Origin: a virus
DNA length: 32,931 nucleotides
Reading direction: 5' to 3' (one strand)
Virus record (IMG/VR): IMGVR_UViG_3300050016_000096
Location: 1 to 32,931 of that record
Shown: positions 661-23,251 of the stretch, piece by piece
Layout: each line of letters starts with the position of its first letter
Position numbering within the stretch: the stretch's first letter is position 1
The notes under the pieces: generated by a model
Databases searched by the model: none
Told to the model about the DNA's origin: nothing
The model's input: the letters and a program-made list of their open reading frames with translations, nothing else
Made by a program: the position numbers and the translations under genes

Positions 661-2115
661 TTAATTCCTTCCGTTTTTAAGCGTTTTGCGAATCTGAGCC
701 AAAGTTTGAATATTCTGCTGAATTCCGTTGTGGAACACAATTTTAAGGGCTCCCAGCGTCTCCTGGTAAGGAGTTTGACTTTCCCTCAGAGTCAGATCGT
801 CTTTCACGCGCAAAAGCCCCCTAGCGGAATTCTTAGTCCCGTCATCAGTGGCCGGGGCCTTGAAGAGCTCCGCGGGCTGATCATTGATGATCCCGTAAGT
901 CGCTTTCATGGCGAAGCCGAAGGTATCTCGCGTTACGTATTGGTAAGTATAGCTGCCGATTCCGAAAACCACATTTGTCGACGCAAAGCCTTTCTCTTTC
1001 AAACCCCGGCATATAGCCTCGGCACGCTCAAGCGTAATCGAATCGCCGTAAATCAGCCCAATATGCGGATCCAGAACCTTGTAGCCTTTGCGATTTGTGG
1101 TTCCTCCGAAGACCCCCCAGAGCAGTTCAACAGCCCCCCGCCCCTTCGGAGACGCATCAATCCCATCTCCACAAATGATCTTTACCGGATCTCCACTATC
1201 TGGACGAATCACCACCTTGCCCTCTCGAGCCAAGATCTTGCTTTTCAATTCGGGAAGCGTCTTCGTCAAAACGTGCCAGAAGTCCCAGGTATCAGAGACA
1301 ATCGAAACAATTCCGTTCGGATATACCTTCGAAATCAACCGGTCGAAAGTTTCGAGCTCCGTCTCCATGCCCCCCATGCACATAACCGCGTGCTCCGTAG
1401 CGGGAACGGAACCCGCAATCAGCTCTTTCTCGCAATCGGCCCCGTAGTATTGCTCCAAGAAATCAATCGCTGGAATGGTATCGGAGCCTGTAAAACTCAG
1501 GAGATGCCCGGCGCCCGAAGCAGCCGCGGCCCCCACCCCAACCTGGCCTCGCATTGAGAAATCGTGGCCCTGCCAGTCAACAAATTCCGGTGTTTCGCTG
1601 GTCAGCTTCGCATATTCGTCCAGGAGCATGCGGTATTGGTGCGCGATCGTGGCGCTCGTCATTGGATGCCAGAGCTCACAGGAAAGGAGGGTTTCGAGGA
1701 AATTTGGCACCCAATAGAATACCATGGCCGTATTGCAGATCGTCAACACCGGAGTTTTCAGCGGACACAGCGTGCCCTCCGGAAGTGCCTTGATTGTCAC
1801 CGGGAGGTAGCCGAGTTTGTGAAGGTCTTCTAGGTGGTCCATCTTGATGGCCCCCTTCCCCAGGCTGTTGTCCATTCTTCTCTTATATTTGCCCAGGACT
1901 TCGGCTGCCGGTCTTTGGAAGAAATTCCTGTTGAATCCGTTGATCAGGTGTTCCTGGATGAAGGCCTGGATTCCGAAGACCACTACTTCCTTGACCCCTG
2001 GGATTCGGCTTACTCTTGGGGTGAAGTTGGAGTAGCAGAATTGTGTGCCCTCCGGGTATTGCCTGCGGTGATCGGTCTTGTAGAAATCTGTGAATAGTGT
2101 TGGCTGGAGATTCAT
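661..2115 (-). CDS. Nicotinamide phosphoribosyltransferase family protein; candidate Namat of NARP1
   Basis: At 484 residues this is the usual length for NAMPT/NadV proteins. Conserved family positions are visible: TDFYKTDH near residue 12 (human Tyr18 region), HDFSMRG at 184-190 (Phe193/Arg196), GSDT with Asp212 (Asp219), SVPATEH with His242 (catalytic His247), VSDTWD at 273-278 and IRPDSGDP at 303-310 (Arg311/Asp313). The glycine-rich phosphate loop reads FGIGSYTYQ at 384-392, unlike the human FGSGGG. NAMPT makes NMN from nicotinamide and PRPP. The NARP1 relative Namat instead joins nicotinamide to ADP-ribose pyrophosphate and gives NAD+ directly. The ATGA overlap with the Prs-like gene, and no visible NMN adenylyltransferase in the window, favour Namat but do not prove it. 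Family assignment is firm; exact substrate is inferred. Confidence 0.93.
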   Translation of the reverse strand: MNLQPTLFTDFYKTDHRRQYPEGTQFCYSNFTPRVSRIPGVKEVVVFGIQAFIQEHLINGFNRNFFQRPAAEVLGKYKRRMDNSLGKGAIKMDHLEDLHKLGYLPVTIKALPEGTLCPLKTPVLTICNTAMVFYWVPNFLETLLSCELWHPMTSATIAHQYRMLLDEYAKLTSETPEFVDWQGHDFSMRGQVGVGAAAASGAGHLLSFTGSDTIPAIDFLEQYYGADCEKELIAGSVPATEHAVMCMGGMETELETFDRLISKVYPNGIVSIVSDTWDFWHVLTKTLPELKSKILAREGKVVIRPDSGDPVKIICGDGIDASPKGRGAVELLWGVFGGTTNRKGYKVLDPHIGLIYGDSITLERAEAICRGLKEKGFASTNVVFGIGSYTYQYVTRDTFGFAMKATYGIINDQPAELFKAPATDDGTKNSARGLLRVKDDLTLRESQTPYQETLGALKIVFHNGIQQNIQTLAQIRKTLKNGRN

Positions 2116-2909
2116 ACTGGGATTATTCCTTTTTTTCTTTTAAAGTTATTGTGAGGGAGGCTATTTGTGGTATAAAGATCGATTCCCCTGTCGGTGAGTA
2201 CTTTTCTGCCTTTTGAGAAGATTCCATGTGTAACGAAAAGCGAGATTTTGGAATCCTTCCCATAGAACTCCCGGATCGTCTCTTCGATACCAAGGAAAGT
2301 CGCTCCCCCATCGCAGATATCGTCGATAATCAGGAAATGTCCGCACTCGATCGAAATCGAGCTGCATTCCTGATTAATCTTATGGGCGAGGATCTTGCCC
2401 GTCCCTGGATCACGGCACTTATTGAAAACCAGCTGACTTTTGAAATTATGTTTGTATCGGTCCCGTGCCCCAGCATCTGGAAACACGAGAGTATTTGGCT
2501 TGATTCGAGCTATTAGCCTTTGCTGCATTGCGTGCGGGTTGATATTCTCGAAGTTTTCGAAGGGAAGCACTTCCCGCACCACCTTGGGATTATGAGCGTC
2601 GAGTGTCGAAAAAATATCCGGCCTGGCGCTCTTTATCAGCTGCAAAAAGATCCGCAAATTGAAAGTCGATTCATTGGAAATCGGCTTGTCCTGACGCCCA
2701 AAAGGCAGGTAGGGAACGTAAAGATCCATGAAGGCCTCCGGCTTTAAGGCCCTAAGCGCCAACAGGTCGTAAATCTCCCGCTCTTCCTCAAAACGCCAGT
2801 CGACCAGCAGCGTTTCTGCTTCCATGATTTCCTTGGGGAGATGCCAAAGCTGACTTGTCTTATCCGGAAAGAAGGTAGGGCCAAGCCGGATTTTATTCAC
2901 TGTGATCAT
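2112..2909 (-). CDS. Short PRPP-synthetase homologue; candidate ADP-ribose pyrophosphate synthetase (Adps)
   Basis: Ribose-phosphate pyrophosphokinases transfer pyrophosphate from ATP to C1 of a 5-phosphoribosyl substrate. Visible motifs are PFGRQDK at 69-75 (the ARQD ATP-binding segment of Prs), LDAH at 103-106 (metal/ATP site), Lys164 in the flexible-loop region and IIDDICDGGAT at 194-204 (the PRPP-binding loop). At 265 residues it is clearly shorter than cellular Prs (about 310-320), so the allosteric or hexamer surfaces may be reduced. Phage Adps enzymes of NARP1 belong to this family and pyrophosphorylate ADP-ribose. The start ATG overlaps the upstream stop (ATGA at 2906-2909), and the stop overlaps the NAMPT-like start (ATGA at 2112-2115), so the two enzymes are translationally coupled. 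Family is secure; Adps versus ordinary Prs cannot be settled from motifs. Confidence 0.9.
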   Translation of the reverse strand: MITVNKIRLGPTFFPDKTSQLWHLPKEIMEAETLLVDWRFEEEREIYDLLALRALKPEAFMDLYVPYLPFGRQDKPISNESTFNLRIFLQLIKSARPDIFSTLDAHNPKVVREVLPFENFENINPHAMQQRLIARIKPNTLVFPDAGARDRYKHNFKSQLVFNKCRDPGTGKILAHKINQECSSISIECGHFLIIDDICDGGATFLGIEETIREFYGKDSKISLFVTHGIFSKGRKVLTDRGIDLYTTNSLPHNNFKRKKGIIPV

Positions 2910-3094
2910 TGTGAGAATCCCCCGCGGACTTCCTTCATAGCCTGCAGGAGCTCATCGAGAGTGTTTTTGCGCACCGGATACCCCTTTAGGAAGTTGTAAA
3001 TTGTTGCGGTCGTCAGAGACCGAGTAAAACGTGAGAATGTATAAACCCCCATGGAATGCTCCTTCAGGAAGGCTTTGAGTTCTTCGGGAGTCAT
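2906..3094 (-). CDS. Small HTH-like protein in the NAD cassette
   Basis: This is a 62-residue protein. The pattern TPEELKAFLKEH / YTFSRFTRS / TTATIYNFLKGYP / NTLDELLQAM fits a compact helix-turn-helix of XRE/Cro type, with TTATIYNFLKG as the recognition-helix candidate. An alternative ATG lies six bases upstream at 3100. I prefer 3094 because it forms an ATGA overlap with the upstream stop and leaves the GGGGA ribosome-binding site 8 bases away, whereas 3100 would leave only about two. It may regulate its own operon; the paired dyads near 3618-3643 are candidate operators. The DNA-binding role is inferred from pattern only. Confidence 0.6.
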   Translation of the reverse strand: MTPEELKAFLKEHSMGVYTFSRFTRSLTTATIYNFLKGYPVRKNTLDELLQAMKEVRGGFSQ

Positions 3095-3276
3095 TTGCAT
3101 TTTCCCCAGTCTTGCGAAATTTTTTTACTCAAAACATAGACTCGAAACCCACCCTCCGAAATATAGGTTTCATGAGGAAGATGACTAAACGCGCATTGCA
3201 AAGCTAGATGCTTCGCGGCGATTTTCTTGGGAAAGCAAATCATCAGCTTTCCATTGGCTAAAATATTGAGTTTCAT
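3091..3276 (-). CDS. Hypothetical 61-residue protein in the NAD cassette
   Basis: Unrecognised basic protein beginning MKLNILANGKLM. The frame is open further upstream, but ATG 3276 gives an ATGA overlap with the preceding stop (3273-3275), the same arrangement used throughout this operon, so the longer version overlapping the preceding gene is rejected. The C-terminal half (ETYISEGGFRVYVLSKKI) looks like a small beta-rich unit. It lies between the 100-residue gene and the HTH-like gene, and its stop overlaps the next start. Confidence 0.65.
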   Translation of the reverse strand: MKLNILANGKLMICFPKKIAAKHLALQCAFSHLPHETYISEGGFRVYVLSKKISQDWGKCK

Positions 3277-3575
3277 TGTGCACCATGCTCGCTGGCATAT
3301 TTTACGGCTTGCAAAAGCGCAATCTTCAAATTGTGTTTCTGCTGTTCCGCGTCGTGGTGAAAAAAGAGGGCTTGCTCTTCTGTTGGGCATTTCGATGGAA
3401 GATTCAGATAGGTGATTAAAGCACGAAACTTAGCCCGACCGTGCATATCATAGGCTTCGATGTGATCATCAATCGTGAAGTCATCAGTACCGCCCCCGTC
3501 TGCCCAAACGGTCTTTCCCGATTTTGTGTGGCCTAATTGAATATCATCTTTGACTACTGGTTTATTGTTTTCCAT
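3273..3575 (-). CDS. Hypothetical 100-residue protein, first gene of the NAD cassette operon
   Basis: Unrecognised acidic protein. The first ~35 residues are hydrophilic with a Gly/Asp-rich segment (WADGGGTDDFTIDDHIEAYD); the C-terminal part is helical (EEQALFFHHDAEQQKHNLKI). An AAGGAG ribosome-binding site lies about 9 bases before the ATG but sits inside a perfect short hairpin (3584-3599). As first gene of a tightly overlapped series ending in the Prs-like and NAMPT-like genes, its translation probably gates the operon. No function is assigned. Confidence 0.7.
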   Translation of the reverse strand: MENNKPVVKDDIQLGHTKSGKTVWADGGGTDDFTIDDHIEAYDMHGRAKFRALITYLNLPSKCPTEEQALFFHHDAEQQKHNLKIALLQAVKYASEHGAQ

Positions 3576-21742: not shown

Positions 21743-21827
21743 TGGCTCCAGGGAAACGACTTGAACGTTTAGGTGCTTTCGCGGCACGTTAACAGCGTGC
21801 TGGGTCTACCAATTCCCCCACCCCGGA
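21743..21827 (-). tRNA. tRNA-Asn (anticodon GTT) with class II-like extended variable region
   Basis: The minus strand folds as acceptor TCCGGGG/CCCTGGA (7 bp, one G-U), T8 G9, D stem GGG/CCC with loop GAATTGGTAGA, anticodon stem GCACG/CGTGC with loop CTGTTAA (anticodon GUU), a 13-nt variable region CGCGAAAGCACCT, T stem AAACG/CGTTT with loop TTCAAGT, discriminator G and an encoded CCA. The canonical Asn loop CTGTTAA, TCC...GGA acceptor ends and G73 agree with asparagine identity. The D arm (GGTAGA) and long variable region are more like tRNA-Leu. All stems pair, so it is probably functional. Confidence 0.88.
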
Positions 21828-21955: not shown

Positions 21956-23251
21956 TTACGCGCTGAGCGCAACTGCCATATTATAACCCGGCGCAGAATT
22001 TATCACGTTTCCGTATGACGCGATGCGTATTTCGAGGGCATCGGCATTTCCGACGCGGAGCCCCTCAAGGCCTTCCATGCCATATGTCAAAATATGGGGT
22101 GCCTTGCCTAAAGTCCTTAATTTCCAAGTACTTAGCGTCATTGCCCAGGCGTTTTGAGCCTGTGCGCTGCGGTCAGCCAATACCGGGATTTTGCCGTATG
22201 CGCTGTGGAAATGGATCGCTTCGAAAGCTACTTCCACTTCGTCGTGCTCGAGCTGCACATACTGCACCTTCGCGCCGAGTTCGTTGATCAGCGTCGAATA
22301 GCTGACGAAATCCAGCACGATCAGATCGAAGGCCGCGCCTTCACGGTTTCCGAATGCCAATGCATTAGTAATTCCCTCGGAAATTGACTGGGCAGAGGCA
22401 TTATAACGCAATCCGCCGAGCCTAGTGGGATCAGCCGACCGATTCACGCCCCAGAAGTTATCGGTCGAAATAGGATCCACAAAAGGAACCCAGGCAGCCA
22501 GACCACTGAGCCCCAAAAGGCCCGCAATCGTGGAAGCACCGGCAGAACCGATATCCCCTAGCACCTGCAGAAAGTCGCCGACCACGAAGCTTGCGCCGGT
22601 TCCCTGAACCACAGTTCCGACAATTACGCCGGTTCCGCGGTTTACGCTGGTCAACTGGATCGCATCGATCACGCCGCCTTCAAGAAGCGCAGCGCCGCCA
22701 TCCGTTGCAGAGTTCTGCAGAGTCATCCCCACTTCGAACTGCACCACGTTCTGGGCATTGTTCAGAGTGATCGTCACCACCGTACCGACCAGCGAAGCTA
22801 CGCCGATCTGGCCGCGAGATGCGGTTCCACCGAAAAACAATTCAAACGCCATGTTGTTCGAGATGTTGCGGAAACCGTTATCCAGCGTGCGGGAAGCTTC
22901 GTCCACGAAGGCACCAGCATTGCTCTTGGTTTGCTCCATGAGCAGGTTGGTGATCGTAACAAGCTGGTAATCCTGGATGGCATACACGAAGTAGCTGACC
23001 ACATCCGATGCGGTTTGTTGATTCTGCGCATTCGCGAAGGTATGGCTTCTTCCCTGCGGATTGCCGTACTCCAGGGGCACAGGAATATATTTCCCGGCAA
23101 AACCATCCGGGCTTTCGTTTTTGGGAATCATCGCCAGCAAAGGGTTCTTTGCGTAGACGATATTCTTCATGTAATCCTTGTCATCGGTATACAGTTCTTT
23201 CAACGCCGCAATCTGATTGCTTGAATTGGCGTATACGGGTGCAATTGCCAT
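21956..23251 (-). CDS. Major capsid (coat) protein
   Basis: The 431-residue protein has the coat-like layout of podovirus HK97-fold proteins: N-terminal arm (IAALKELYTDDKDYMKNIVY, NPLLAMIPKNESPDGFAGKYIPVPL), long backbone helix (LLMEQTKSNAGAFVDEASRT, NNMAFELFFGGTASRGQIG), an inserted beta region (~170-260), and a C-terminal segment with FDLIVLDFVSYSTLINEL and DALEIRIASYGNVINSAPG. It lies directly downstream of the scaffold gene, six bases after its stop, with AAAGG before the ATG, and is followed by a strong terminator, as expected for a high-dose product. The fold is inferred from pattern and position. Confidence 0.88.
   Translation of the reverse strand: MAIAPVYANSSNQIAALKELYTDDKDYMKNIVYAKNPLLAMIPKNESPDGFAGKYIPVPLEYGNPQGRSHTFANAQNQQTASDVVSYFVYAIQDYQLVTITNLLMEQTKSNAGAFVDEASRTLDNGFRNISNNMAFELFFGGTASRGQIGVASLVGTVVTITLNNAQNVVQFEVGMTLQNSATDGGAALLEGGVIDAIQLTSVNRGTGVIVGTVVQGTGASFVVGDFLQVLGDIGSAGASTIAGLLGLSGLAAWVPFVDPISTDNFWGVNRSADPTRLGGLRYNASAQSISEGITNALAFGNREGAAFDLIVLDFVSYSTLINELGAKVQYVQLEHDEVEVAFEAIHFHSAYGKIPVLADRSAQAQNAWAMTLSTWKLRTLGKAPHILTYGMEGLEGLRVGNADALEIRIASYGNVINSAPGYNMAVALSA

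Follow-up and report, generated by a model that had tools for sequence, protein, structure and literature searches.

We report that the window, by which we mean the whole 32,931-base virus record analysed here and classed as linear, carries on its minus strand two overlapping genes that very probably constitute a NARP1 module, a pair of enzymes rebuilding NAD+ from ADP-ribose and nicotinamide as a counter to NAD-depleting defence. This reading, already advanced in the earlier note, is supported by the trees of both proteins, by the clamp residues of the enzyme called Namat and by the substrate loop of its partner, Adps. By homology with the characterised NARP1 systems of SPbetaL1, Bas63 and DyoEdafos, a host defence of TIR, SIR2 or SEFIR type would cleave NAD+ to nicotinamide and ADP-ribose; Adps would transfer pyrophosphate from ATP to ADP-ribose, forming ADPR-PP, and Namat would combine nicotinamide with ADPR-PP to give NAD+ directly, so that the phage would re-form NAD+ from precisely these cleavage products and finish its cycle. 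Its host, as the earlier note proposed, may possess NAD-depleting immunity. NARP1 was reportedly described by Osterman et al. (cited in PMC11559045 and PMC12774641); such pairs are already widespread in phages, and Namat is already characterised structurally.

Organization of the Gene Pair

The gene for Adps, a predicted ADP-ribose pyrophosphate synthetase of 265 aa, spans positions 2112-2909, and that for Namat, a predicted nicotinamide ADP-ribose transferase of 484 aa, spans 661-2115, both on the minus strand and joined by an ATGA stop-start overlap at 2112-2115, as the earlier note had described for a Prs-family and a NAMPT-family gene. Both open reading frames (ORFs) start with ATG and contain no internal stop. 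The Namat ORF matches phrog_448 (nicotinamide phosphoribosyl transferase) with E 8.9e-193, as well as Pfam NAPRTase and NAMPT_N, while the Adps ORF matches phrog_619 (ribose-phosphate pyrophosphokinase) with E 2.5e-46; these matches rule out chance. Our Pfam search of the Adps ORF returned no match, which marks it as a strongly divergent Prs homologue. Its length, called short in the earlier note, is ordinary, since the Adps-type ORFs of related loci span about 241 to 300 aa.

The pair lies at the end of a co-directional run of small genes with overlapping ends, all on the minus strand: an ORF of 100 aa at the head (3273-3575), one of 61 aa (3091-3276) and one of 64 aa (2906-3100) that overlaps the Adps start and has a weak match, below cut-off, to a Cro/C1-type HTH domain (PF13443, E 0.024). 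Namat has a G+C content of 0.525 and Adps one of 0.472; that of the whole window is 0.533. One base past the Namat stop begins a further minus-strand ORF (3-659) which runs off the contig end and has a long Ala/Tyr/Asp repeat close to its own end. A conserved three-gene cassette including the upstream HTH gene was considered and discarded, given that the small HTH-like gene directly upstream of the pair in the podovirus ctKR88 has no detectable homology to the 64-aa ORF; for the other small neighbours of the window pair, the fetched loci contain no homologue. RyDEP acts together with the NARP1 of DyoEdafos (PMC13232231), and the RyR match by which we sought it beside the window pair was absent from the window, but also from every control genome.

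Namat Has the Substrate Clamp of NARP1 Enzymes

The window Namat is 55.5% identical over 472 residues to that of the Bacillus phage SPbetaL1, and its best matches in the PDB are 9w5w and 9w5x, the structures of SPbetaL1 Namat with NAD+ or nicotinamide. Its AlphaFold2 model (pLDDT 94) superposes on 9w5x/9w5w with a TM of about 0.95 and an rmsd of 1.2-1.6 A, the TM with human NAMPT being 0.88. The residues of Namat that touch nicotinamide, ribose-phosphate and adenine have been named, together with a clamp formed by a beta1-beta2 loop that bears Arg, Lys or Tyr and by a helix with the motif GSX-phi-X-phi-X-phi-TRD (PMC12774641). When the window protein was aligned to native SPbetaL1 numbering, the same or an accepted residue was found at 22 of the 22 sites checked. 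The catalytic core of NAMPT (D13, Y15, F189, R192, D215, R306, D308, G360 and D361 in SPbetaL1) is entirely conserved; in window numbering the residues kept are D10, Y12, R37, F186, S187, R189, D212, A239, R304, D306, G357, D358 and S359, and in the clamp helix G387, S388, Y389, Y391, Y393, T395, R396 and D397. The stacking residue of the clamp loop is R37 (codon 2005-2007, minus strand), equivalent to SPbetaL1 R40, and the helix reads G387-S-Y-T-Y-Q-Y-V-T-R-D397 (codons 925-957, minus strand), which follows the published motif, the third and seventh residues being aromatic; its further correspondences are F392 to Y389, Y396 to Y393, T398 to T395, R399 to R396 and D400 to D397. The segment GIGSYTYQ, to which the earlier note had pointed as a place to look for specificity, was thus well chosen, for it lies on this clamp helix.

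Could the pair instead perform canonical salvage, with Prs making PRPP from ribose-5-phosphate, NAMPT making NMN and the host NMN adenylyltransferase completing NAD+? Both proteins do belong to the superfamilies of these enzymes, and Namat is reported to keep PRPP-dependent NMN synthesis in vitro (PMC12774641), yet we consider this route highly improbable. Canonical NAMPT enzymes, NadV included, have non-aromatic residues at both clamp-helix positions where the window has Y389 and Y393, and lack the equivalent of R37 as well: our negative controls read GGGLLQKLTRD in human, GGALLQKVDRD in Xanthomonas (Xcc) and GAQTYQRNTRD in NadV of H. ducreyi, and the human, Xanthomonas and phage ValKK3 and RB43 proteins have GGG or GGA and K, Q or E at these two sites. 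The window, moreover, contains no match to the NMN adenylyltransferase family, even if the contig may be a fragment and such a gene could lie elsewhere.

In the phylogenetic tree, the window protein lies inside the Namat clade, nearest to viral contigs and ctKR88, while human, Xcc and other NAMPT proteins split off with support of 100. The NadV of H. ducreyi (PDB 9ke8, 9keo), which is 49% identical to the window Namat, also falls inside the Namat clade, so the clade by itself does not fix the substrate and the clamp is its better predictor. Besides its missing clamp aromatics, NadV has no adjoining Adps in the stretch read, and its structure (9ke8) holds NMN. The NadV of H. ducreyi pNAD1 (locus L252, 259-1746) branches near Kayvirus and SPbetaL1 within the clade, and NadV looks like a Namat that has reverted to NMN synthesis. 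Annotation is misleading here, for the NCBIfam equivalog NF006629 names the window Namat, SPbetaL1 Namat and NadV all as nicotinate phosphoribosyltransferase.

Adps Is Separated from PRPP Synthetases by Phylogeny and Substrate Loop

The solved chains nearest to the window Adps are archaeal and bacterial PRPP synthetases of low identity, and its model has the Prs fold (pLDDT 91, TM 0.78 vs PRPS1). Active-site residues R72, H106, D145, G147, K164 and R166 are kept, and alignments of both proteins therefore bear out the earlier statement that the main catalytic landmarks are intact. Our alignment of the window Adps comprised 132 Adps-type proteins of viral or phage origin, 71 from bacteria, and PRPP synthetases. 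The Prs loop that binds the 5-phosphate of ribose-5-phosphate has the form [DS]-T-x-G-T-[IL] in nine of nine Prs proteins. Adps-type proteins mostly have C-D-G-G-x-T-F instead: the Phe is invariant (132/132 viral or phage, 71/71 bacterial), and Gly replaces the Thr of Prs in 124 of the 132 and 70 of the 71, respectively. The loop is CDGGATF in the window (DDICDGGATF, residues 196-205, codons 2295-2324, minus strand), SSFGGTF in SPbetaL1 and CDGGRTF in Bas63. A DGGATF sequence in place of [DS]TxGT[IL] speaks against canonical salvage; the definition of DGGxTF as an Adps feature is derived here, not from the literature.

The phylogenies of both proteins had been set beforehand as a check of the NARP1 reading, to which grouping with Prs and NAMPT would be fatal. 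In a careful IQ-TREE analysis of 39 rows (30 Adps-type, 9 Prs), the Adps clade, which includes the window, SPbetaL1 and Bas63, separates from the nine PRPP synthetases at 100/100, paralleling the separation of Namat from NAMPT. The window Adps groups with eight viral contigs (100/97), and SPbetaL1 Adps is the sister of this group (96/91, 12-row set). A larger, quick tree agreed with this. The AU test on this under-searched tree did not reject a grouping of the window with Prs, a result favourable to canonical salvage; however, the constrained tree scored above the free one, and for this reason our assignment draws on the loop as well as on the careful tree. The window protein is divergent, with 24-41% identity to the relatives compared and a long branch of 1.52.

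The window and nine Adps kin have FPD[KGN]T[SQ]QxW in 10 of 10 cases (FPDKTSQLW in the window, residues 14-22, codons 2844-2870, minus strand), with a one-residue insertion and an extra Trp, and the fifth position, Thr in all 10, is occupied by Glu or Gln in 185 of the 194 remaining Adps-type proteins. In Prs, such as that of B. subtilis, this stretch contacts the adenine of ATP. The window Adps belongs to a subtype with an altered ATP-loop motif, and there is a small chance that this subtype uses another nucleotide donor or binds ATP differently, with the DGGxTF loop conferring ADP-ribose selectivity across the family.

Two loci, L086 (5920-8889) and L092 (5851-8757), have Adps kin of the window near NAMPT-like proteins that lack the clamp (helix GGLLLQxHSRD); the subclade is thus not always paired with a clamped Namat, and an Adps with such a clamp-less partner is possibly an intermediate form. 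Swapping of Adps between related Namats was also considered. A grouping of the window with the loci that carry its Adps kin is rejected by the Namat data (p-AU 0.00035). A grouping with the type of ctKR88, however, is compatible with the Adps data (p 0.766, in a quick tree where constrained trees scored above the free one), and consequently neither incongruence nor swapping is established.

Comparison with Known Systems and Occurrence in Viruses

SPbetaL1 NARP1 (Adps WIT26982.1, Namat WIT26983.1) has the gene order of the window and a Namat with the same clamp, catalytic residues and fold. It differs in several ways: its genes overlap by one base instead of ATGA, its Adps is only 30% identical to that of the window, with FPNGE in place of FPDKTSQLW in the ATP loop and DDLSSFGGTF in place of DDICDGGATF in the substrate loop, and its record is of 134 kb, whereas the window is a podovirus-like record of 33 kb. 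The NARP1 of Bas63 (Escherichia phage JohannRWettstein, MZ501086) shares with the window the Adps loop DDICDGGxTF and the Namat motif GSYTYQYxTRD, with 36% identity in Adps and 47% in Namat, but its genes lie 45 bases apart. The closest named phage relative of the window Namat belongs to the podovirus ctKR88 (MW202524, Manatee Spring), with 62-63% identity; here, too, Adps precedes Namat with an ATGA-type overlap, even though its Adps (30% identity) falls in a different subclade from that of the window.

More generally, an Adps-type ORF was found within about 6 kb in 72 of 80 Namat-seeded viral loci, no more than 100 bases away in 29 of these 72, and four of the eight loci without it are short or cut contigs. 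One viral contig (L128, 5959-8370) has a natural Adps-Namat fusion of 803 aa, which shows the loop of Adps as well as the motif of Namat. NAMPT/Namat relatives were found by tblastn in 1,917 of 50,697 phage records, and a published survey of small phages detected NadV-like genes in only about 2% (PMC9503650). NrsAB of ICP1 are probable NARP1 members (PMC11559045). Acinetobacter phage MD-2021a has three consecutive genes (L263, 2099-5316), for Adps, for Namat and for a bifunctional NMN adenylyltransferase/ADP-ribose pyrophosphatase, and may thus have both NAD+ routes together.

Bacterial Relatives

Chromosomal NARP1 has already been published, including that of Paenibacillus foliorum (PMC12774641). 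Our analysis retrieved 80 genome loci (L170-L249), nearly all of Bacteroidota, with a Namat 58-63% identical to that of the window, the full clamp in 80 of 80 and Adps of DGGGTF type. Near the pair are encoded an NrtR-like NUDIX regulator (67/80), KptA (36/80) and a macro domain (29/80), neighbours that suggest a bacterial operon for recycling ADP-ribose to NAD+. The eight genomes tested each have two Prs-domain matches, a strong one to canonical Prs and a weak one of Adps type.

Such chromosomal homologues, of about 60% identity and apparently metabolic, raise the question of whether NARP1 chemistry in the phage mainly recycles ADP-ribose and NAD+ for infection metabolism instead of opposing defence. 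We regard this as quite unlikely. In contrast to the bacterial operons (e.g., L170 and L173), the window pair is phage-borne and lies in a phage gene run without NrtR-like, KptA or macro-domain partners, and several NADase defences are countered by the phage NARP1 systems described so far (PMC12774641). The distribution of the pair among related phages, considered below, also favours counter-defence.

The Carrier Phage

The window phage is podovirus-like, according to weak matches for portal and adaptor, and has a clear terminase, the matches of which are distant and from mixed hosts; a host search with two structural proteins found no named-phage match for either, and a PADLOC run gave nothing of use. 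A tRNA-Asn (gtt) lies at 21743-21827, amid phage structural genes. The gene at 21956-23251, taken as the capsid gene from its position, has relatives at 59-91% identity in viral contigs. Neither Namat nor Adps has a match in any of 50 contigs bearing a related capsid, although 28 of them exceed 33 kb and the same Namat query does match the record of the window; this indicates that the cassette is accessory, as would be expected of a counter-defence gene. Might the contig be chimeric? The structural block is largely common to eight relatives, by full or near-full reading, and one of these (contig G022, L379) has a homologue, 52% identical over 124 residues, of the ORF downstream of Namat, because of which a chimera is not supported.

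The structure of Adps has been stated to be unresolved, for which reason its choice of ADP-ribose is listed as unresolved too (PMC12774641); the replacement of [DS]TxGT by DGGxTF offers a family-wide residue hypothesis for the acceptance of ADP-ribose by this enzyme. The window adds a lineage of small podovirus-like phages to the carriers of NARP1, in which the cassette is seen as an accessory gain.
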